Of a stretch of 64,000 bases of DNA, positions 4,313 to 52,536 are shown piece after piece. A program made the position numbers and the translations under genes. Source of the stretch: Sulfurimonas sp. HSL-1656 (lineage in GTDB: Bacteria; Campylobacterota; Campylobacteria; Campylobacterales; Sulfurimonadaceae). The notes under the pieces were generated by a model, which was not told the DNA's origin, did no database searches, and saw only the letters and a program-made list of their open reading frames with translations. The stretch spans positions 1,550,001 through 1,614,000 of the forward strand of contig NZ_CP147915.1 in assembly GCF_039645585.1 (NCBI RefSeq), given 5' to 3'. How positions within the stretch are numbered: the first letter of the stretch is position 1; the number at the start of each line of letters is the position of its first letter.

Positions 4313-5317
4313 ATGAACCCGATAAGCACGAAACGCTCCCTTACCCACCTCACCGACCGCAAGGTACCCGTCTTCCTCTGGGGGCCTCCGGGCATCGGCA
4401 AATCCTCCATCGTCGCCCAGATCGCCAAGGAGAAGAAGATCTCCTACATCGACCTGCGTCTCTCCCTGCTCGACCCGACCGACCTGCGGGGTATCCCTTT
4501 CTTCAATGCCGATTCCGGCGAAGCCGTCTGGGCCCCCGCCTCCTTCCTGCCCGATGGCAGCGAGAAAGAGGGGATCCTCTTCCTCGACGAGCTCAACACC
4601 GCCGCCCCGATGGTGCAGGCCTCGGCCTACCAGCTCATCCTCGACCGCAAGATCGGCGAGTACAAGCTCCCCGACGGCTGGGCGATCGTCGCCGCCGGTA
4701 ACCGCGAAAGCGACCGCGGTGTCGTCTTCCGTATGGCCGCGCCGCTGGCCAACCGCTTTGTGCACCTGGAGATGGAAGCAAGCGTCGAAGACTGGAAACA
4801 GTGGGCCGTCGGTGCGGGGATCGATCCCGCCATCATCGCCTTTATCTCCTACCGCCCCGACGCGCTCTTCACCTTCGGACAGGGCAAGGACGACAGCCGC
4901 TCCTTCGCAACGCCGCGGACCTGGGAATATGTTAACGAAATCGTCGCCTCCGAACCCGACCCCGACCTGATCATGCCCCTGGTCGCCGGGGCTATCGGCG
5001 AAGACCTCGCCGCGGCCTTCCTCGGCTTCAAAGTCGTCGCGGGCGAGCTCCCCGACCTCGACGGCATCTTTGACGGAAGCGTCTCCGCCGTCCCATCCGA
5101 ACCGGCAGCCCTGCATATGCTCAGTACCGCCCTGGCCATGCGCGTGGGCGAAGGGACCAGCAGCAAGAAGCTCAACAATCTCATCGCCTACACCCTCAAG
5201 ATGCCGGGCGAATTCGCCGTCATGATCATCCAGGACCTGCGCGAACGCAAGATCGAGCTCGATCACGTCGACAGCTGGACGCTCTGGATGCGCCAGTTCA
5301 ACAACCTTCTGCGCTAA
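4313..5317 (+). CDS. MoxR-family AAA+ ATPase
   Basis: 334 residues. The Walker A motif GPPGIGKS is at residues 24-31, Walker B ILFLDELNTA at about 92-101, and sensor 1 region IVAAGNRESD follows, ending with PLANRFVHLEME. This order is typical of MoxR ATPases, which remodel or activate partner proteins together with von Willebrand A proteins. The next gene, 9 bases downstream, is exactly such a partner, so the two form a MoxR-VWA module. The ATG at 4313 follows GCAAGGACCGCC. Target proteins cannot be named from sequence. Confidence 0.9.
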   Translation: MNPISTKRSLTHLTDRKVPVFLWGPPGIGKSSIVAQIAKEKKISYIDLRLSLLDPTDLRGIPFFNADSGEAVWAPASFLPDGSEKEGILFLDELNTAAPMVQASAYQLILDRKIGEYKLPDGWAIVAAGNRESDRGVVFRMAAPLANRFVHLEMEASVEDWKQWAVGAGIDPAIIAFISYRPDALFTFGQGKDDSRSFATPRTWEYVNEIVASEPDPDLIMPLVAGAIGEDLAAAFLGFKVVAGELPDLDGIFDGSVSAVPSEPAALHMLSTALAMRVGEGTSSKKLNNLIAYTLKMPGEFAVMIIQDLRERKIELDHVDSWTLWMRQFNNLLR

Positions 5318-5326
5318 GGGCCCGCT

Positions 5327-6496
5327 TTGACCCCAGAGCAATTACTGACCAAAGCCAAGTCCCAGCTGACGATGAAGCACCCCTACTTCGGGATGCTCGC
5401 CTCCCGCCTGAAGCAGGAGCCCAAAGAGGGACTGCGCGGCTATGCCAGCAACGGCAAGCGCTTTTTGTACGACCCGGAGTTCATGCAACGCCGCAGCATC
5501 GAAGAGGTGATGTTCATCCTCACCAACTGCGTCATGCACCACGTCCTCTCGCACCAGCAGCGCCAGCTCGGACGCAAAGGGGGACTCTGGCAGCTGGCAA
5601 CCGACTACGCCATCAACAACCTCCTGCACAAAAACGGCCTGGAGATCCCCCAGGGCGCCAACTATAACGAAGAGTTCGAAGGGATGTACGCCGAGGAGAT
5701 CTACGACGCCCTCAAAGAGAGCTACTACAGCGACATTGATGACGCCTTCGGCGGCGAGGACGACGTGCCGCCCCCGCCGGGCATGCCGGGCGGATCGGCT
5801 GAAGGCGGTGAAGGCGAGGAGGACAGCGGCGCGTTCTCCAACCTCGGCAATATCGAAGAGGAGCTCGACGCCCAGAACGAGTCGGAGTGGCAGTACGCCT
5901 CCTCCGTCGCCCAGGAGGTCGCGCAGCGTAAAAGCGCGATGCCTTCGGGCATGGACCGGCTGGGCAAGAAGGTCAAGGCCGCCGACGTCGACTGGCGTTT
6001 CGAACTCTACAACGCCGTCAACAAGCATATGCGCAACAACTACGCCTTTATGCCGCCGAACAAGAAGCACCTCTACCGCGGTGTCGCGCTGCCCTCCTTG
6101 GCCAGCGATACGCTCAGCCTCTGCGTCGCCGTCGATACCTCCGGCTCCATCAACGAGGCACTGCTGGGTGCCTTTACCGAGGAGTTCAAAAGCATCATGA
6201 CGATCTTCCCCGCCATCCGGATCGAGCTGATCATCGCCGACGCGAAGGTGCACGGCCACTACACCTTCCAGGGCGGCGAGAAGCTGGACTTCCCGCTCAA
6301 AGGAGGCGGCGGGACAGACTACCGCCCCGTCTTCGACTACATCGAGGCGGAGCTGCCGATGACGACGATGCTGCTCTACTTCACCGACGGTGACGGCTGG
6401 TTCCCGCGCATCCCGCCGCCGTACGAGGTGCTCTGGGCCCTTTCAAGACCGGCCAAAGTCCCCTTCGGGCGCGGGCTGGTCATCTTCAACTCCTAG
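5327..6496 (+). CDS. VWA-domain protein with DUF2201-like metallopeptidase-like N-terminal region
   Basis: 389 residues from a TTG start, 9 bases after the MoxR stop. The N-terminal half has the helical region with VMHHVLSHQQRQLGRKGG followed by TDYAINNLLH, as in DUF2201 putative metallopeptidase-like proteins. A low-complexity Pro/Gly/Glu linker (about residues 146-175) follows. The C-terminal half is a VWA-like domain with the metal-site motif VDTSGSINE and the later FTDGDGW. Together with the upstream ATPase it should form a MoxR-VWA chaperone pair acting in the cytoplasm. Peptidase activity is not shown by these motifs alone. Confidence 0.85.
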   Translation: MTPEQLLTKAKSQLTMKHPYFGMLASRLKQEPKEGLRGYASNGKRFLYDPEFMQRRSIEEVMFILTNCVMHHVLSHQQRQLGRKGGLWQLATDYAINNLLHKNGLEIPQGANYNEEFEGMYAEEIYDALKESYYSDIDDAFGGEDDVPPPPGMPGGSAEGGEGEEDSGAFSNLGNIEEELDAQNESEWQYASSVAQEVAQRKSAMPSGMDRLGKKVKAADVDWRFELYNAVNKHMRNNYAFMPPNKKHLYRGVALPSLASDTLSLCVAVDTSGSINEALLGAFTEEFKSIMTIFPAIRIELIIADAKVHGHYTFQGGEKLDFPLKGGGGTDYRPVFDYIEAELPMTTMLLYFTDGDGWFPRIPPPYEVLWALSRPAKVPFGRGLVIFNS

Positions 6497-28253: not shown

Positions 28254-29762
28254 TTAAAAATTATTTTTAAAATGAAAGACGGTGAGATTGGTGCGGCGGA
28301 AGCCGCGGCGGGTGTAGAAGTTATGGGCGTTTTCATTGTCGATATCCGCGGCAAGCTGAATCCGTTTGTAGCCGTATGACTGTGCCATAAAGCGCATTTT
28401 GTTGATGAGCCGGCTGCCCACCCCCATCTTGCGGTACTCCTGGCGGACGACCAGGTCTTCGATCTGGCCGACATAGTCGCCTTCGGCACTGGAGATGAGG
28501 CGCTGCATCGTCAGCATCCCGACCACTTTCCCCTCGTGCCGCGCGACGAGCAGGTCGGTACCCTCATGGCCGTAGAGTTTCGTAATCCCGGAGAGCTGCT
28601 TGTCGAAGTCGATCTCGAAATCCTGCTCGATGGCGAAGAGCACCCCCAGCAGTCCGGCCATGTGCGGCAGATCCTCCTCCGTGGCAGCCTCGATAGTGAT
28701 GCCTGTCTTCATATTGATGTCGCAGATCTCCGGGTGGAGCACTTCGATGACCAGTTTCGCATGCTCATTGAGCGGGTTGTCACCGATATAGAGGGAGTTC
28801 AGGCTCTTCATGTTCGCCAGCTCCTCCGGCAGGTCGACAATGGCGTTGCCGTCGATATCGAGTTCGTACAGCTCCGTATAGCGGCTGATCGTCTCCGGCA
28901 CGTCGGCAATCGCGTTGGAGGAGTAGCACAGTGACCCCAGGGAGGTCGATGGCAGCATCGGAAACGCCGTCAGCCCGCAGCCGTCACAGGAGAAGGCGCG
29001 AAGATAGGGGGCGAAATCATCCGCAATTTGCAGTGATGAAAGCGCGTTGTCGTCCAGCGTCAGCACTTCAAGCTCCTCCAACCCGTGCAGCGTCACCTCC
29101 TTGATGCGGTTCGAGGCGAGGTTGACCGATTCGACCCCGAGGGTGAAAAAGGCTTTGTCGATCGTTTCGATACGGTTGTCCGAGAGCTCCAGTTCCAACA
29201 GCGAACTGAGGTATGTCGCCTCCGGGGGGATCCTTGTGATCAGGTTCCCCTCCAGGTTCAGCCGCTCGACCGACGTGAGCTGGGCCAGCATGGCGGCAAT
29301 ATCTTTAATGTAATTGCCGGCGAGGTTGAGGGTGCGCAGCTCATTGGGAACGCTCAGGCAGTTGTCGAAGCCCTCGAGCACGTTGCCGCTGAGATCAAGC
29401 ACACGCAGCATCGTGAAACGGACCAGCTCACTGACGGCGCTGATACGGTTGCCGCTGAGGTTGAGTGAACGGATCGGCAGTGCCCCCAACAGTGCCGGGA
29501 CGGCCGTGAAGGCGTTACGACGAAGGTCCACGTTGCTCAGTCTCATCATCGACGCCATGGACTCGGGCAGCACGGAAAGTTTGTTGTTGCCCAGGTTGAG
29601 CGCGACCAGTTCGGTGAGCAGGCCGAAACTCTCGGGCAGACTCTGCAGCGCGCGGTTGCTCAGATCGAGACGTTTCACCTCGGCAGGCGTTTTGACTTCC
29701 GGTACGATGGCCCGCTGCGCCATCAGCCAGGCACGCAGGGACTCCCATTGCGGTTCGGACAT
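28254..29762 (-). CDS. leucine-rich-repeat / GNAT acetyltransferase fusion
   Basis: 502 residues in two parts. From about residue 28 to 335 there are some twelve leucine-rich repeats (LTELVALNLGNNKLSVLPES, IRSLNLSGNRISAV, LRVLDLSGNVLEGF, VERLNLEGNLITRIP and others), giving a curved binding surface. From about 352 to 500 a GNAT N-acetyltransferase domain carries the acetyl-CoA motif VRQEYRKMGVGSRLI and the C-terminal AHNFYTRRGFRR. It is the last gene of the unit that begins with nifB, 2 bases after the 88-aa gene. A protein-modifying acetylase whose target is chosen by the repeats is a reasonable guess; the target is unknown. Confidence 0.88.
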   Translation of the reverse strand: MSEPQWESLRAWLMAQRAIVPEVKTPAEVKRLDLSNRALQSLPESFGLLTELVALNLGNNKLSVLPESMASMMRLSNVDLRRNAFTAVPALLGALPIRSLNLSGNRISAVSELVRFTMLRVLDLSGNVLEGFDNCLSVPNELRTLNLAGNYIKDIAAMLAQLTSVERLNLEGNLITRIPPEATYLSSLLELELSDNRIETIDKAFFTLGVESVNLASNRIKEVTLHGLEELEVLTLDDNALSSLQIADDFAPYLRAFSCDGCGLTAFPMLPSTSLGSLCYSSNAIADVPETISRYTELYELDIDGNAIVDLPEELANMKSLNSLYIGDNPLNEHAKLVIEVLHPEICDINMKTGITIEAATEEDLPHMAGLLGVLFAIEQDFEIDFDKQLSGITKLYGHEGTDLLVARHEGKVVGMLTMQRLISSAEGDYVGQIEDLVVRQEYRKMGVGSRLINKMRFMAQSYGYKRIQLAADIDNENAHNFYTRRGFRRTNLTVFHFKNNF

Positions 29763-34789: not shown

Positions 34790-35261
34790 AGAGCAGCCGC
34801 TTGACATCGGATACGCTTCCGAAAAGGTCACGCTCAAAGCCCCGGACGGTACGTCACAGAGTGTCGGGGGACAGGACGGTAAGACCCATCTGATCGTTAC
34901 CGTCCCTTTTATAGATGACAACTGCATCGCCGAACTGCAAGCCATCGGCAAGGCCCTTCCGAAAGCCGACGATGTCACCGCGTCACTGATCGTCGCCGCG
35001 ACCTCCCACGAGGACCCCAAAGTCGAAGGGTTCCGCTTCCTGCTTGACAGCGACGAAGAGTTCGCCGACTGGTACGGTGTGCGCCTCAGCGGTGAGCCCC
35101 TTGACGGGGAGCTGACCAAGGCCCTGTTCATCATCTCCAAGGATGGTGCACTCTACTATGATGAATTTGCCAGGAACCTGCATGATCCGTTCAACGCCGA
35201 AACGGCCGTACGGAAAGTCTACGCTGCGCAAGAATGCTATACCGGGAAAGGATGCCACTAA
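34752..35261 (+). CDS. thiol-peroxidase-like (Tpx-like) thioredoxin-fold protein
   Basis: 169 residues from TTG 34752 (AGGAG at 34740-34744), overlapping the upstream gene by 38 bases; ATG 34779 is an alternative. SEKVTLKAPDGTSQSV then HLIVTVPFIDDNCIAELQAI matches the Tpx pattern in which SIDTGVC holds the peroxidatic cysteine, here shifted to DNC. KVEGFRFLLDSDEEFADWYG resembles the SD-pattern loop of Tpx. The C terminus ends ECYTGKGCH with two cysteines. It may remove peroxides or act as a redox partner near nitrogenase; activity is uncertain because the active-site frame is altered. Confidence 0.7.
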   Translation: MQIQLNTSTMRLEEQPLDIGYASEKVTLKAPDGTSQSVGGQDGKTHLIVTVPFIDDNCIAELQAIGKALPKADDVTASLIVAATSHEDPKVEGFRFLLDSDEEFADWYGVRLSGEPLDGELTKALFIISKDGALYYDEFARNLHDPFNAETAVRKVYAAQECYTGKGCH

Positions 35262-36127
35262 TGAGTGAAACAATGACGACAACAGAGACCAAAGACTACA
35301 GTGAACTGATCGAAACGATCAAGAAAGAGATCCGCAACCAGACGACCGTCCCCTACTTCGGGCTGGGAATCTTCAAAGGGATTACGACCAAAGAGGGCGA
35401 ACAGATGCCTTTTGACTCGGATTCGATGATTTTGATGATGAACAACGGCCGTGCCATGAGCCCGCGCCTGATGTTCGAATACTCCCGGGCCGCCATGCAC
35501 CTCGAGCAGCGCCGCGGCGTGGACTACATCCAGCAGATGACCAACTGGATCTACACCAAGGAGTTCGAACCGACGCCGCTGCACAAGGCGATCCTGAACA
35601 TGTCGCCGCGCTACATCATCGACACCAACCGCGATGCCAAGCTGCAGGAGATGCTCGCCTTCGAACCGCATACGTTTATCATCGGCAAGTCGCGCATCCT
35701 CGACAATGACTACCGCTACGAGATCTACGAGTGGGATGTCGAGAACAAGAAGTACTTCCAGGTCGACGAAGAGGCCCTCGACGACGCCCAGAAGATTCTC
35801 TTCAAACCAATGGGTTCCCCGCTGCCGGACCCGAGCTTCGTTATCTCCGACGCCGACTATGTCGACTGGCTGACCGAAGCGATGGGCGGCTATGCCGTCC
35901 CGTCCGTCCTCAAAACCTACCGCAAGACGAAAAAGTACCTCTTCATGGGGACCTATTTCGACCGCGATACCGACCGTATGGTCGCCAACGAACTGACGCA
36001 CGACCTCGAAGGGGGTTACTTCATCACCGACCAGGAACTCGGTAAAAAAGAGAAGAAATTCGTCGAGAAGCACAATCTCGAACTGATCAAGATGTCGCTC
36101 GAAGCCTTCACCGAGGCGTTTATCTAA
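35261..36127 (+). CDS. SIR2-like domain protein in nif operon
   Basis: 288 residues. Its ATG overlaps the stop of the Tpx-like gene (TAATG). The sequence TVPYFGLGIFKGITTKEGEQ near residue 30 resembles the nucleotide-binding start of SIR2_2-type proteins, followed by SRAAMHLEQRRGVDYIQQM and HTFIIGKSRILDNDYRYEIY in the middle. No zinc-binding cysteines and no clear catalytic histidine can be named, so deacetylase activity cannot be claimed. SIR2-like proteins also occur as NAD-consuming factors. Position as third gene of a sigma-54 nif transcript suggests an accessory role. Confidence 0.6.
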   Translation: MSETMTTTETKDYSELIETIKKEIRNQTTVPYFGLGIFKGITTKEGEQMPFDSDSMILMMNNGRAMSPRLMFEYSRAAMHLEQRRGVDYIQQMTNWIYTKEFEPTPLHKAILNMSPRYIIDTNRDAKLQEMLAFEPHTFIIGKSRILDNDYRYEIYEWDVENKKYFQVDEEALDDAQKILFKPMGSPLPDPSFVISDADYVDWLTEAMGGYAVPSVLKTYRKTKKYLFMGTYFDRDTDRMVANELTHDLEGGYFITDQELGKKEKKFVEKHNLELIKMSLEAFTEAFI

Positions 36128-36221: not shown

Positions 36222-36817
36222 ATGCCATACATACCTACCGTAAAAGACAGAACCCCACGGGGCGAACGCTATTTTGACCTTTTTTCCAAACTGATGGGTG
36301 ACCGTGTCATCATGATCACCGAACCGATCGACGACCACATGATGGGGATCATCGTCTCCCAGCTGCTTTATCTCGAAGCCGAAGATTCCGAAGAGCCGAT
36401 CCATATGTATATCAGTTCTCCGGGCGGTTCGGTGATGGCGGGTCTCGCCATCCTGGACACCATGCAGCTGATCAGCGCCCCGGTCTACACCTACGGTCTG
36501 GGCATGGTCGCATCAATGGCCGCCGTCCTCTTCACCTGCGGCGAGCCGGGACACCGCTACGTGCTCCCCAACGCCGAAGTGATGATCCACCAGCCGCTCG
36601 GCGGCGCACAGGGCCAGGCCAGTGATATCGAGATCCAGGCCAACCACATTATCAGCCTCAAAAAGCGCCTCTACAAGATCCTCTCCGAAGCCACCGGTGC
36701 ACCGGTCAAAACCATTGAGAAAGCCAGCGACCGCGACAACTATTTTGTCGCCGAAGACGCCATCAAGTTCGGTCTGGCGGACCAGATCCTCAATGCTATT
36801 ACGAAAAAGGAAGTCTG

Positions 36818-36818
<1 letters not shown>
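36222..36818 (+). CDS. clpP: ATP-dependent Clp protease proteolytic subunit
   Basis: 198 residues, normal length. The catalytic serine is in YGLGMVASMAAVLF and the catalytic histidine in EVMIHQPLGG, with the aspartate in the C-terminal third (EKASDRDNYF). It forms the heptameric double-ring peptidase in the cytoplasm. AAAGGAAACTT precedes the ATG. It overlaps clpX by one base, making a clpPX operon that is unrelated to the nif genes around it. Confidence 0.98.
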
Positions 36819-38047
<1,229 letters not shown>

Positions 38048-43622: not shown

Positions 43623-43860
43623 CACTTTGATTGACACTCTAGTGACAGCGTAGCACACTTTATTTAATATATACCATTATTTGTTGATTACAGATGTCAA
43701 ATGAACATCACAAGCGTGGATCACAATATTCACGGCCCCTATCGTTCCGATGCGTTTTGTATAAGACACCCCCCTAAGAAGTCCAATCCCTACTTTTTTG
43801 AAATCAATAGAACGCATATTGCATTCCGCTTGAAATATCACAACACAAGGATGACACTCT

Positions 43861-44424
43861 ATGTCAACAGTACAGGACTTCATTTTCGGGAACAACCTGC
43901 AGTGGCAGGCTTCTTTCAGCGAGAAAACAGACAAATACGCCTACGGCTACCGCGGCAGCCTCGTCATCACCCCGGGCAAGGTGCTCTCTGCCGACAAACA
44001 GCTCCCGCCGAAGGCCACAGCGACACAGGTTATCCTCGTCAGCAACAGCGACAAAATCGACTTCATCGCCTGCGAACTCGAAACCCTCGATTTTTTCGAA
44101 CCGTTCGTTGAACAGTACAAAGAGGTCCTCTCCACCGACGGTCTCTATCTCCTCTTCGTCACCGACCTCGATGCCGACGGCAAGTTCGAGTATGAAGGGT
44201 TTACCTTCTACGCCTTCTCTCTCGATGAGAGCTCCGTCTGGAACGAACTCCTCGACCACGCCGACCTTTCAAAAGGCGACCTGAAAAAACTCGATGCCGG
44301 CGAGAAGATCGATACAGTCTACGACGAGATCAAGGCGACGACACTGCGCATCTCCGACAAAAGCTACGACGATATCAAAGCCGCACAGAACGGCGAAGGC
44401 AGAGTCCTTTTCGGCGCGGTCTGA
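43861..44424 (+). CDS. 187-aa hypothetical protein
   Basis: ATG 43861 follows CAAGGATGACACTCT. The 187-residue product begins MSTVQDFIFGNNLQWQASFS and has no signal peptide or membrane helix. It is acidic, with VLVSNSDKIDFIACELETLD and a DADGKFEYEGFTFYAF strand pair in the middle. I do not recognise a domain; the fold looks alpha/beta. It stands alone between a META lipoprotein and an SDR, and ends near a hairpin. Confidence 0.75.
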   Translation: MSTVQDFIFGNNLQWQASFSEKTDKYAYGYRGSLVITPGKVLSADKQLPPKATATQVILVSNSDKIDFIACELETLDFFEPFVEQYKEVLSTDGLYLLFVTDLDADGKFEYEGFTFYAFSLDESSVWNELLDHADLSKGDLKKLDAGEKIDTVYDEIKATTLRISDKSYDDIKAAQNGEGRVLFGAV

Positions 44425-47178: not shown

Positions 47179-47517
47179 TTAGGCAGCATATCGCTTTCGT
47201 ATGTCGGCTTTGAACGCTTTCATCTTGGGACGGGTGATTTTATCCATCGCAAACTCCCGCAGGGGCTTGATCTGCGCGGTGATCTCCTCGGTGAGTGATG
47301 AACGTCCCGCCGCGATAAGTGCGGTGACGTCATTTTCAAAGAGATTGCACTTTTTTTCAGGCAGTGCATCATACAGCGCCATAAAGAGCGCCTTCTGTTC
47401 CGTACTCATCTTGCAGGTGTCATCGGAGATCTTCAGGGCTACGGTCACGGCGCATCCGGTTTCAAAAGGGTCCAGTGCTGCAGCGATTTCCTGCAGTCTT
47501 TCGGTATTAAAGTTCAT
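47179..47517 (-). CDS. 112-aa hypothetical protein of the nifX-ferredoxin unit
   Basis: The ATG at 47517 opens MNFNTERLQEIAAALDPFET, a helical protein with three cysteines (GCAVTVAL, DDTCKM, KKCNLF) and a basic C terminus (RPKMKAFKADIRKRYAA). It is 19 bases downstream of the 91-aa gene and is last in a run ferredoxin, nifX, ferredoxin, 91-aa, 112-aa. I do not recognise it. The frame is open to 47697 but antisense to nothing useful, and the shorter form fits its upstream neighbour. Confidence 0.72.
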   Translation of the reverse strand: MNFNTERLQEIAAALDPFETGCAVTVALKISDDTCKMSTEQKALFMALYDALPEKKCNLFENDVTALIAAGRSSLTEEITAQIKPLREFAMDKITRPKMKAFKADIRKRYAA

Positions 47518-47536
47518 AAGGCATCCGGACTTTCCT

Positions 47537-48298: not shown

Positions 48299-48676
48299 TC
48301 AGGCGCTGCGCTGGGCACCTTTGTGGAAAGCGCGCAGCAGCCAGATCGGCGGCTGCGTGTTCAGCATCTCGTGGATCTGGTCGATCGCGCCTTTGAGGTC
48401 TTCCCCTTCGGCGACCTTGACGGGGTGGATCCCCGCGGCCTGGACCATCTTCGAGGCCTTCGGCCCGATCTGGGTGCAGTACATGATGTCCGCCTCCTCG
48501 ATCGTCCCGATCTTATAGTTGAGCTTCGCCACTTCCTCTTCAGGCTCATCAGAACTGTCGATGACTTTGAGCAGCGTCGCGCTCTCTTTATCGATTTCGT
48601 AAAGATGGAAAGTCTTGGACCAGCCGAAGTGCTGATCGATCTTCTCGCCCGTTGATGAAGCAAATGCAATTCTCAT
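48299..48676 (-). CDS. nifX: NifX, cofactor carrier
   Basis: 125 residues from the ATG at 48676, beginning MRIAFASSTGEKIDQHFGWS. HFG is the conserved element of the NifX/NifB-C domain, and ADIMYCTQIGPKASKMVQAA then EGEDLKGAIDQIHEML complete it. NifX carries NifB-co and FeMo-co intermediates. An upstream in-frame ATG at 48736 falls inside a hairpin and is less likely. It lies between two paralogous ferredoxins, preceded by the hairpin array. Confidence 0.9.
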   Translation of the reverse strand: MRIAFASSTGEKIDQHFGWSKTFHLYEIDKESATLLKVIDSSDEPEEEVAKLNYKIGTIEEADIMYCTQIGPKASKMVQAAGIHPVKVAEGEDLKGAIDQIHEMLNTQPPIWLLRAFHKGAQRSA

Positions 48677-49751: not shown

Positions 49752-50651
49752 TTACATCAGGTAAAGGACGACATTTTTGTCGATCAGCTCCTCGAAAGCG
49801 TCGAGCAGCATATCCGCTGTCGACGTTGAACCGAGGTGACAGCCCGAACAGGCACCAAGGTAGTTCAACCAGATCTGCGGGGTCTCGCCCGGAAGGTAAT
49901 TGAGCAGCTCGATCCCGCCGCTGTCGGCTTCGAGGGTCGGGCGGATCTTCTGGTCGATCACCTGCATCACCAGCGTGATCTGCTTTTCCACCGGCAGGCT
50001 GCGGAACGGTTCGTTGCGCAGGGTCGCCAGCTCTTTGTTGCTGACATAGGTGACGACTTCCTGTGCCCGTACATTGTTATTGTGCGCGGCGGTAATCAGG
50101 TAGCGCATCGCTTCGGCCTTCTGCCCCTCTTCTTTGAGGAGCATGCCCGCTTTGAACTGGGCGTCGACATGGCCGATATCGGCGGCGGCTCTGTAGTACT
50201 GCAGCGCCCCTTTGGCATCGGGCGTACCGTCGATCCCTTTCTCATGGATCTGCGCCAGGCTCATCATCGCATGCATATTGCCGCGCTCCGCCGCTTTGGC
50301 AAACCACGTTTTTGCCGCTTCGATGTCGCGGCCGCACCCTTTACCCTGCATCGCCATGACCCCCAGGTTCACCATGGCGTTGGCATCCGCCTTTGCCGCC
50401 GAATCGACAAAGAGGTCGTAGGCCTCTTTATACTGTTTGGCCTCGTAGGCGCTCACGCCCGCTTCGAATGTAGTCATTTTCTGCTCCTCCTGATTTTGAA
50501 AATAGGCTTCGAGCCGTTCATACGCATCCTCTTCGGCCTCCTCGAAGGAGTCGCCGATCCCTTTGATCTCCGGGAAATCGACGAACTGGGCGACGCAACC
50601 GTCCCCCTCCTCGTTGGAAAAACCGAAATAATCGAGTGCATACTTTTTCAT
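49752..50651 (-). CDS. HicB-like / Sel1-repeat / NifU C-terminal domain fusion
   Basis: 299 residues in three parts. Residues 1-52 (DYFGFSNEEGDGCVAQFVDF ... GDSFEEAEEDAYERL) look like a HicB-type fold. Residues about 60-215 are Sel1-like repeats (AMVNLGVMAMQGKGCGRDIE, AMMSLAQIHEKGIDGTPDAK). The end is a NifU scaffold domain with LGACSGCHLGSTSTADMLLD, the two-cysteine cluster site. Methionine 59 (ATG 50477, with AGGAGCAGAAA before it) is a second plausible start, giving a Sel1-NifU protein. Iron-sulfur delivery to nitrogenase is inferred from the NifU domain and the context. A sigma-54 element is at 50664-50678. Confidence 0.88.
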   Translation of the reverse strand: MKKYALDYFGFSNEEGDGCVAQFVDFPEIKGIGDSFEEAEEDAYERLEAYFQNQEEQKMTTFEAGVSAYEAKQYKEAYDLFVDSAAKADANAMVNLGVMAMQGKGCGRDIEAAKTWFAKAAERGNMHAMMSLAQIHEKGIDGTPDAKGALQYYRAAADIGHVDAQFKAGMLLKEEGQKAEAMRYLITAAHNNNVRAQEVVTYVSNKELATLRNEPFRSLPVEKQITLVMQVIDQKIRPTLEADSGGIELLNYLPGETPQIWLNYLGACSGCHLGSTSTADMLLDAFEELIDKNVVLYLM

Positions 50652-50663
50652 ACCCGGCCTTGT

Positions 50664-50678
50664 GCAAAGAACGTTCCA
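50664..50678 (-). promoter_or_regulatory. sigma-54 promoter toward the HicB-Sel1-NifU gene
   Basis: The minus strand reads TGGAACGTTCTTTGC followed by A, matching TGGCACG-N4-TTGCA closely. The expected transcription start is near 50652, directly beside the ATG at 50651, so either the message is almost leaderless or the main start is the ATG at 50477. Confidence 0.75.
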
Positions 50679-50683
50679 GACAG

Positions 50684-50698
50684 TGGAACACTTTTTGC
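50684..50698 (+). promoter_or_regulatory. sigma-54 promoter toward the NifX-like gene at 50731
   Basis: TGGAACACTTTTTGC followed by AA has the exact -24/-12 spacing. The predicted start near 50710 lies about 21 bases before the ATG at 50731. Its -24 element begins only five bases from that of the opposite promoter at 50664-50678, so the two point away from each other. Confidence 0.8.
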
Positions 50699-50730
50699 AA
50701 ACATAAGCAAAAATCATCTAAGGAGGCGAC

Positions 50731-51126
50731 ATGATCGCTATACCGGTGGACAAGGCACAGATGGATGCCAAGTCATCGACACTTTTTGGAAATGTTCAGG
50801 CATTCGCCCTATATAATAATGATGAAAAGGCGTTTCACTTCATTCCGAACGAGGGCAAAGGAGACGGCATCATGACTGCCAACCTGCTTGCAGACCATTC
50901 CGTCACTTCTGTTGTCTACTCTTTTATGGGGGACGGTCCATTCGGGATCCTGAACCGCGAGGGGGTCAACGTCTACTACCTCGGTAAAGAGCCGATGTCG
51001 CTCATGAGCATCATCGAGGGGCTGGACAAAGAAAACTTCGTCAAGGTCGACGCTGCGAATGCACAGACCTACCTTGACCCGGGCACGGCATCGGGAACGT
51101 GCGGATGCGGATGCAGCCATGACTGA
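50731..51126 (+). CDS. NifX/NifB-C family protein with CGCGC tail
   Basis: 131 residues, beginning MIAIPVDKAQMDAKSSTLFG and containing FALYNNDEKAFHFIPNEGKG and GDGPFGILNREGVNVYYLGK, in the layout of the dinitrogenase iron-molybdenum cofactor domain. The C terminus is GTCGCGCSHD, an unusual four-cysteine patch. AAGGAGGCGAC precedes the ATG. It begins a four-gene sigma-54 transcript and overlaps the next gene by eight bases. A cofactor or iron-sulfur carrier role is inferred. Confidence 0.8.
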   Translation: MIAIPVDKAQMDAKSSTLFGNVQAFALYNNDEKAFHFIPNEGKGDGIMTANLLADHSVTSVVYSFMGDGPFGILNREGVNVYYLGKEPMSLMSIIEGLDKENFVKVDAANAQTYLDPGTASGTCGCGCSHD

Positions 51127-51364
51127 GATTATCACCAAAGAGATGCATGAGATCCGCGGCCTGATCGCACAGACTGTCGCCAAGCGCAATGCGCTCAAGG
51201 CGGAGATGCAGGAGTGGTACGACCGCTTCCCCAACGAACGCTTCGGCAAGTTCAAGGACCTGATCGCCGTTGACGGCGTGCTCTCGCAGCTCGATTCACA
51301 CTACAAACAGCTCTGGGACTTCCACAATGCCCGCACGGATAGCGTGCAGAAAAAGGCAATGTAA
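51119..51364 (+). CDS. 81-aa helical protein, nif-associated
   Basis: ATG 51119 overlaps the previous stop by eight bases. The product (MTEIITKEMHEIRGLIAQTV ...) is charged and helical with RFPNERFGKFKDLIAVDGVL in the centre and no cysteine. I do not recognise the family. Translational coupling with a NifX-like protein and a sigma-54 promoter upstream place it in the nif regulon. A small assembly or chaperone role is only a possibility. Confidence 0.78.
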   Translation: MTEIITKEMHEIRGLIAQTVAKRNALKAEMQEWYDRFPNERFGKFKDLIAVDGVLSQLDSHYKQLWDFHNARTDSVQKKAM

Positions 51365-51367
51365 GGG

Positions 51368-52012
51368 ATGCCGGAGTACAGCAAGGCCAGTAAGGCCCGC
51401 GTGCCTGATGAGACCTCTGGGTACAGTGAAAAAGGGCGGCTGACAGCCGCCGGTGCGCAGATCGACCGCTACCGGATCATCCTGGACAAGGACAATTTCC
51501 AGCCCGAAGAACCCCACTGGCGGCGTATCAGCAAGAATACCGTCAGCCTTTTCCAGGTCCTGATCGACCAGGACCTCAAAGAGCTTGTCATGGTGCTCGA
51601 ACACTACCCCCGCTACATTGAGTGGGTGTGTGAACACTTCCGCTATGCCTACAGCTACAGCGAGAACGAAGCGAGCATCGACGCCGCTTCCCGGCTCCTG
51701 GAACTTGGGGAGCCCTTCTTCACGAAACAGTTCGTCCGCAACCTCGTCCGCAAGCTCCCGCGCCTCGATACGATGGAGCTCGAAAGGCTCAAAACGTTCG
51801 CCGAAGCGGTTGCGGCACACCACGGGCAGTGGCACCCCATCATTACGAACCACTACTGCGACGCCATCGGAGAGAGCGTCGAATCCCGGAAACTGCATCC
51901 GCTGCAGCGCCTGGCCATCACCGGCAAGATCGCGAACATTACACGGATCGAAACCTTCGAGTACGACGCCGAAGACCGCGACGCCGTCCTCGATATCCCC
52001 TACATGAATTGA
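51368..52012 (+). CDS. 214-aa hypothetical protein, nif-associated
   Basis: 214 residues starting three bases after the 81-aa gene. It begins MPEYSKASKARVPDETSGYS and is mainly helical, with LFQVLIDQDLKELVMVLEHY, DTMELERLKTFAEAVAAHHG and a His-containing QWHPIITNHYCDAI stretch. It has two cysteines (WVCEHF, HYCDAI) and several histidines, so metal binding is conceivable. No domain recognised. Third gene of the transcript from 50684. Confidence 0.78.
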   Translation: MPEYSKASKARVPDETSGYSEKGRLTAAGAQIDRYRIILDKDNFQPEEPHWRRISKNTVSLFQVLIDQDLKELVMVLEHYPRYIEWVCEHFRYAYSYSENEASIDAASRLLELGEPFFTKQFVRNLVRKLPRLDTMELERLKTFAEAVAAHHGQWHPIITNHYCDAIGESVESRKLHPLQRLAITGKIANITRIETFEYDAEDRDAVLDIPYMN

Positions 52013-52032
52013 ATTGAACAGAAAGGTTACCT

Positions 52033-52536
52033 ATGGATAAAGAAACCCTCAAAGAAGAACTGCTTAAACACGCGCGCAACGCTTTTGAAACCGCTTCGAC
52101 CCTGCACGAGAACGAGCGTATCGAAGTCTACCTGCACGACGGTGTCGCCAAAACCTCGGATGTCCTCGACGACAGCGACGAAATCCTCTACGGCGACAAC
52201 CGGGTGCTGTGCTACCAGATCCAGGGGTACGACTACCTCGAAGGCGAGATCAAAACCTGGATCGACTATGCCCGGGTCATTCAGGAACCCACCGATGAGA
52301 TGCCGCTGCCCGAACCCACCGACATCGAAAAATCGATCCGCGAGCTTATCGACACGCTGGCGAAATCCAAAGGGGTAAGCCGTGATGATATCAGCTCCTT
52401 CGAGGTCTTCGCCAACCTGCCGATGGACCTGCTGGGTTCTATCGAACAGCAGATCATCGAATACTGGTGGAGTGCGGAAGAGGAAGAAAACGGCAAGAAA
52501 CTCGCCCTGGCGCAGATCGAAGAGGCATTGGCCTAA
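52033..52536 (+). CDS. 167-aa hypothetical protein, nif-associated
   Basis: 167 residues with GAAAGGTTACCT before ATG 52033. It starts MDKETLKEELLKHARNAFET, has a beta-rich centre (ERIEVYLHDGVAKTSDVLDD, LYGDNRVLCYQIQGYD) and ends helical (LGSIEQQIIEYWWSAEEEEN). It is acidic with one cysteine. It is the last gene of the unit; two hairpins follow. No family recognised. Confidence 0.78.
   Translation: MDKETLKEELLKHARNAFETASTLHENERIEVYLHDGVAKTSDVLDDSDEILYGDNRVLCYQIQGYDYLEGEIKTWIDYARVIQEPTDEMPLPEPTDIEKSIRELIDTLAKSKGVSRDDISSFEVFANLPMDLLGSIEQQIIEYWWSAEEEENGKKLALAQIEEALA

Follow-up and report, generated by a model that had tools for sequence, protein, structure and literature searches.

MoxR-type AAA+ ATPases that work together with VWA proteins, serving as dedicated chaperones of metal enzymes, are the closest described counterparts of the system reported here. 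The MoxR-like ATPase CoxD and the VWA protein CoxE are maturation factors for the Mo-Cu site in CO dehydrogenase and form a pair dedicated to a molybdenum-containing metalloenzyme (PMC4240915). The RavA-ViaA couple of E. coli likewise consists of a MoxR ATPase and a VWA adaptor linked to respiratory enzymes (PMC10585395, PMC3893208); ViaA is the adaptor of RavA, and the two serve respiratory complexes, fumarate reductase among them (PMC10585395). The pair described below differs from CoxD/CoxE in being tied to nif genes, in possessing a VWA protein of the DUF2201 type and in the addition of two predicted helical paralogues, termed A and B. It differs from RavA-ViaA, which is not nif-linked, in the annotated N-terminal domain of the VWA protein (DUF2201_N). 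An open-access literature search retrieved no paper joining MoxR with NifQ and nitrogen fixation, and the sole paper on MoxR, VWA and nitrogenase concerned CO dehydrogenase. To our knowledge, RavA-ViaA has no counterpart of A or B, and we know of no nitrogen-fixation system with a MoxR-VWA chaperone.

Two further comparisons concern nitrogen fixation itself. The Nitro_FeMo-Co domain (PF02579) of NifX/NifY/NafY-type proteins is shared by the first gene product of the unit analysed here, and the genes of the NifQ-NifO branch of molybdenum supply flank MoxR, VWA and B in the same genome and in near relatives. Transfer of nitrogenase to new hosts requires that every assembly and protection factor is known.

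Layout and control region of the four-gene unit

Four open reading frames were confirmed at positions 50731–52536 of the window (the whole stretch of 64,000 nucleotides that was analysed), with products of 131, 81, 214 and 167 residues. All four are conserved at the protein level in other genomes. The unit and its surroundings comprise the following features:

49752..50648, minus strand: divergent gene, Sel1 repeats and NifU C-terminal domain (Pfam)
50663..50678, minus strand: inverted sigma-54 element TGGAACGTTCTTTGCA of the divergent Sel1-NifU gene
50684..50699, plus strand: sigma-54 (-24/-12) element TGGAACACTTTTTGCA of the four-gene unit, 31 bp before gene 1
50731..51126, plus strand: gene 1, 131 aa, NifX/NifB-type PF02579 protein with a conserved Cys-rich tail
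51119..51364, plus strand: gene 2 (p81), 81 aa, family-less and nif-linked, overlapping gene 1 by 8 bp
51368..52012, plus strand: gene 3 (family A), 214 aa, after a 3-bp gap, all-helical model, paralogue of family B
52033..52536, plus strand: gene 4 (family D), 167 aa, after a 20-bp gap, all sampled carriers nifD-positive

These coordinates bear out the sequence-only reading, according to which four genes, overlapping or at most 20 bases apart, encode a NifX-like protein with a CGCGC tail and three proteins of no assignable family. The product of gene 1 matches PF02579 (Nitro_FeMo-Co, NifX-NifB-like) with 37 bits, above the Pfam gathering cut-off of 26.3, and ends in ...GTCGCGCSHD; a Cys-rich tail is found in all homologues compared and a CxCxC motif in most of them. 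Its departure from NifX/NifY/NafY-type proteins lies in this tail and in the lack of any match to the NifX equivalog TIGR02663 at E≤1, and a near-NifX protein is encoded apart, at 48299 (TIGR02663, 102 bits, just below the cut-off of 112). For the proteins of 81, 214 and 167 residues no credible match was obtained in Pfam or NCBIfam. Of the neighbouring gene, previously described as HicB-Sel1-NifU, the Sel1 and NifU parts were recognised by Pfam, whereas the HicB-like N-terminus gave no Pfam match at E≤1. The gene is oriented divergently, and in most relatives it likewise stands head-to-head with the unit or with D.

The sigma-54 element noted in front of the unit proved to be a perfect -24/-12 element, positioned back-to-back with that of the Sel1-NifU gene. 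Due to the divergent orientation of the genes, the unit and the Sel1-NifU gene share one control region, and since just 5 bp separate the two -24 boxes, the polymerase sites of this bidirectional sigma-54 region should exclude one another. A relaxed sigma-54 pattern detects 8 sites in the 64 kb, compared to 0.75 expected. Sites on both strands are kept in six of 11 related loci and a site on one strand in three more, and none of the shuffled controls carried both; the divergent pair is retained in G102, LH_M75, G089, G107 and G159. Between 50301 and 51000 no NifA-type site of the form TGT-N10-ACA is present, and a diverged NifA site is conceivable there. Elsewhere in the window, a 187-aa protein of no Pfam family (43861–44424, plus strand) is preceded by a sigma-54-like site of its own at 43808 (TAGAACGCATATTGCA). 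Many genomes carry relatives of this protein close to nif genes, and a Methylococcus nif plasmid (L094) may carry one as well.

Co-occurrence with nif genes

A sample of 249 genomes from the order, of which 60 possess nifD and 189 lack it, was used to follow the distribution of the families. Family A and its paralogue B were detected in 19 of the 60 nifD-positive and in none of the 189 nifD-negative genomes (Fisher p 1.5e-13, genomes not independent), and family D in 13 of the 60 and none of the 189 (Fisher p 3e-9, likewise with non-independent genomes). At the level of genera, 16 of 31 with nif are carriers, compared to 0 of 42 others (p 6e-8). In four genera with both nif-positive and nif-negative members (g2, g28, g36, g44), A/B occur exclusively in the nif-positive ones, indicating that the link between nif and A/B has recurred. 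Since A/B and D are confined to nifD-positive genomes of the sample, the earlier proposal of an undescribed accessory system of nitrogen fixation stands, and the spread among many non-diazotrophs that it had named as the contrary outcome was not observed. The unit may act in cofactor handling or protection.

A/B are absent from 41 nif-positive genomes, so nitrogen fixation as such does not depend on them. Where D and nifD share one contig and nif is intact, they lie about 20–42 kb apart. One genome of 1.6 Mb (G101) contains a broken nif cluster (L086, G101:C1:1415000-1434000), in which nifD, nifB, nifV, clpX, the flavodiiron protein, MoxR, VWA, A/B and D are left as fragments. Such a joint loss of nif and the module fits one shared purpose.

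Beyond the order, the search comprised plasmids, one exact-word genome scan and a draw from the phylum that overlaps the order sample. A was not found on plasmids, though 257 plasmid records match NifD. The exact-word scan of genome contigs with A revealed one relative, a Helicobacteraceae MAG, and the overlapping phylum draw no new carriers.

The MoxR-VWA-B operon and the adaptor proposal

B is encoded in a second operon, newly found here, which in this clade reads NifQ-MoxR-VWA(DUF2201)-B-wHTH-NifO. In the genome of the window it is located at 1466 kb, about 130–135 kb from A, in the order g114-NifQ-MoxR-[insert of several genes]-VWA(DUF2201)-B-small wHTH-NifO. NifQ (PF04891, 7e-18) and NifO (TIGR01616, above cut-off) were identified by their profiles. 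MoxR (L003:13859-14869) matches AAA_5 with 7e-8 and displays the Walker A and B motifs GSPGIGKS and ILFLDELN. The VWA protein matches PF13203 (5e-29) and PF09967, and its MIDAS residues D259, S261, S263, T323 and D347 are invariant in 11 sequences.

Comparison with relatives revealed a recurrent architecture. The order flavodiiron protein-NifQ-MoxR-VWA-B-wHTH-NifO is found in G102, G089, G107 and G142, with an extra gene before the wHTH gene in G102. MoxR and VWA are adjacent in these four as well as in G139, G020, G070, G226, G163, G021, G148 and G197, and are split by other genes in the genome of the window. In G020, G139 and G070, A comes immediately after B in operons of the order MoxR-VWA-B-A, and in G050 it comes after VWA-B; in G142 and G197 a p81-A-D operon adjoins the MoxR-VWA-B operon in convergent orientation. 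Four nif-positive genomes devoid of the module (G137, G159, G170, G202) keep NifQ and wHTH(-NifO) contiguous, and MoxR-VWA-B can therefore be regarded as a module that was gained or lost. NifQ is distant from MoxR-VWA-B in G070, G139, G148, G163 and G226, which weakens a specific link to molybdenum supply.

Scores of the nif-type VWA profile are bimodal, with 260–647 bits in 16 genomes, all of them carriers of B, and a best score of 162 bits elsewhere. Among nif-positive genomes, A and the nif-type VWA occur together in 14, A alone in one, VWA alone in two and neither in 43 (p 1e-10). The only genome with A and no nif-type VWA (G168) is 82% complete and fragmented. Exclusivity for nif within the sample, genetic linkage and the structure of the module are shown by these data.

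The window itself contains a second MoxR-VWA (DUF2201) pair (4313–5317 and 5327–6496, plus strand). It is of a general type, which is present in nif-negative genomes as well; in G148/G248 (L047, L048) a pair of this kind is immediately followed by B, and in G170 (L085) D adjoins another. A 113-aa protein of no Pfam family (47182–47520, minus strand), adjoining a ferredoxin gene, has a relative that follows B and A in the module of G070 (L036:8221-8571).

A and B are 30% identical in the genome of the window, over an alignment of about 130 residues with few invariant positions in common. The structure model of A is all-helical and of moderate confidence (pLDDT 68, pTM 0.61, from an alignment of two sequences). 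With this model no significant match was obtained in a fold search (Foldseek best E 0.1; VIA Z ≤6.6), and the helical-repeat rows (TOG, MIF4G, importin) were judged generic. His50, Cys88, His90, His156 and His177 are invariant in 16 members of family A and, on the basis of this set, A may bind a metal; the alignment of B contains no invariant Cys. The model of D, built on a two-row alignment, was unusable (pLDDT 45). Searches of A, B and D against Pfam, NCBIfam and PDB sequences yielded weak unrelated matches only (e.g. DUF7083 0.066; Sir3 0.009; RbfA 0.0009 for B). That A is itself an AAA+ or VWA protein was rejected, since none of the 16 members shows credible similarity to AAA or VWA profiles; A is associated with the module but is neither a MoxR nor a VWA member. 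Equally, A is not NifQ-like, as the Cys motif is absent and NifQ is encoded separately.

Since A tracks the nif-type VWA and directly follows B elsewhere, the most likely role of A, by analogy with CoxD/CoxE, is that of a helical adaptor in a MoxR-VWA chaperone dedicated to nitrogenase, which perhaps serves molybdenum or cofactor maturation. The chances are about even that the unit as a whole is a sigma-54-controlled nitrogen-fixation accessory operon of Campylobacterota in which A, together with B, fulfils this function. A and B would then be non-catalytic helical adaptor subunits of the MoxR AAA+/VWA chaperone from the second operon, which in this clade carries NifQ and NifO. The MoxR ring would use ATP, and the MIDAS-bearing VWA protein would couple the ring to B and A. 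The ring would thereby remodel a nitrogenase assembly intermediate, whereby molybdenum or cofactor is inserted or a stalled intermediate is recovered. Linkage to NifQ and NifO, found in the clade of the window but not throughout, points to such ATP-driven maturation of a nitrogenase cofactor or intermediate, and we infer that the proteins of the module interact physically and act on a client in this process. The Cys-tailed NifX-like protein, p81, D and the Sel1-NifU protein would act on the iron-sulfur or cofactor carrier side of the same pathway.

The most complete version of this proposal is somewhat less secure and falls short of an even chance: a new nitrogenase-dedicated MoxR-VWA with the helical families A and B would perform an ATP-dependent FeMo-cofactor step or repair, and NifX-like protein, p81 and D would form a second new set, of Fe-S or cofactor carriers, under the shared bidirectional sigma-54 promoter. 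Counting against the accessory-operon explanation with A and B as adaptors are the distance of about 135 kb between A and B in the genome of the window, the insert that splits MoxR from VWA and the occurrence of D without A, due to which the unit need not have one function. With its exclusivity for the diazotrophs sampled and, in this clade, its association with NifQ and NifO, the MoxR-VWA pair would open a new step of Mo-cofactor maturation or repair to genetics. Three families devoid of annotation (A/B, D and p81) would gain a concrete pathway and testable partners.

Alternative readings of the unit and the module

Whether the unit combines two functions under one promoter, namely a NifX-like/p81/D set of Fe-S or cofactor carriers plus A, could fall either way with equal probability. 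NifX-like, p81 and D genes occur together in G137 and G202, from whose genomes A is absent, NifX-like and D are together in G168 with A elsewhere, and D stands alone in G159. The unit is thus divisible, with D found in the absence of A in four genomes (G137, G159, G170, G202) and A in the absence of D in eight. Where A is located elsewhere, it sits with MoxR-VWA-B or NifS, and the association between A and D within nif-positive genomes is weak (7 with both, 8 with A alone, 6 with D alone, 39 with neither; p 0.012). However, A and D have stayed adjacent in G000, G102, G089, G107, G142 and G197, which represent two families, and in G142 and G197 their operon lies beside that of MoxR. As the core of D, p81 and NifX-like protein occurs without A, the unit probably has two functions, A having probably joined an operon of the carrier side. 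In that case the function of A would be uninformative on D, and the explanation of A as a chaperone adaptor would be compatible.

The main rival of the cofactor-maturation reading is oxygen protection, according to which the unit and the MoxR-VWA-A/B module would shield nitrogenase from oxygen or restore it. In this role they would remodel nitrogenase or Fe-S proteins damaged by oxygen, working next to diiron proteins that consume it. In its favor, a nif-specific flavodiiron gene adjoins NifQ upstream of MoxR-VWA-B in G102, G089, G107 and G142, G070 and G226 have a hemerythrin-like gene ahead of the module, and nitrogen fixation at 4% and 20% O2 is documented for related Campylobacterota isolates (PMC11474244). 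The nif-type flavodiiron protein is also more frequent in genomes with nif-VWA (14 of 16) than in others (21 of 44; p 0.007); yet the same count leaves 21 nif-positive genomes with the flavodiiron protein and no nif-VWA, and the genome of the window and G021 possess the module in the absence of a nif-type flavodiiron protein. As each occurs without the other, the two are separable, and a module that is simply a flavodiiron oxygen system was rejected. Moreover, the two MoxR-VWA systems compared here from the literature (CoxD/CoxE, RavA/ViaA) act on cofactor or complex assembly. Altogether, oxygen protection appears rather unlikely, and maturation of cofactor or assembly intermediates is preferred. 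The nif-type flavodiiron protein itself is present in 35 of the 60 nifD-positive and none of the 189 nifD-negative genomes, its scores exceeding 600 bits and the next score being 259 bits. Examples are L045:10861-12090 and L034:13734-14978, in addition to 33 other genomes.

A regulatory unit, whose proteins control the stability or turnover of nitrogenase assembly proteins, for instance as substrate adaptors of ClpXP or MoxR, is improbable. The embedding of clpP-clpX in these nif clusters and the prediction of A as a small helical protein would suit such a role, but no similarity to an adaptor family was found, and the distribution of A follows that of MoxR-VWA, whereas clpPX is found near nif even where A is absent (G170, L085). 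The clpP-clpX genes of the window (36222–38047, plus strand) lie inside the nif cluster, an arrangement shared by several relatives and the Methylococcus nif plasmid. Hitch-hiking of the genes with nif islands, without a functional tie to nitrogen fixation, would account for their patchy presence among nif-positive genomes but is highly improbable, as none of the 189 nifD-negative genomes has module genes, the divergent sigma-54 pair is conserved and in many genomes the genes are dispersed over several loci, some of them distant from nif (in G020/G139, A at about 0.6 Mb and nifD at 1.1–1.2 Mb).

Two further genes of the nif region of the window are worth recording. At 35258–36124 (plus strand) a nif-linked protein of 289 aa is encoded, which shows a weak SIR2-like match (5e-5, just below the cut-off). 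Adjoining nifH, at 28254–29762 (minus strand), lies the gene of a leucine-rich-repeat protein fused to a GNAT acetyltransferase.
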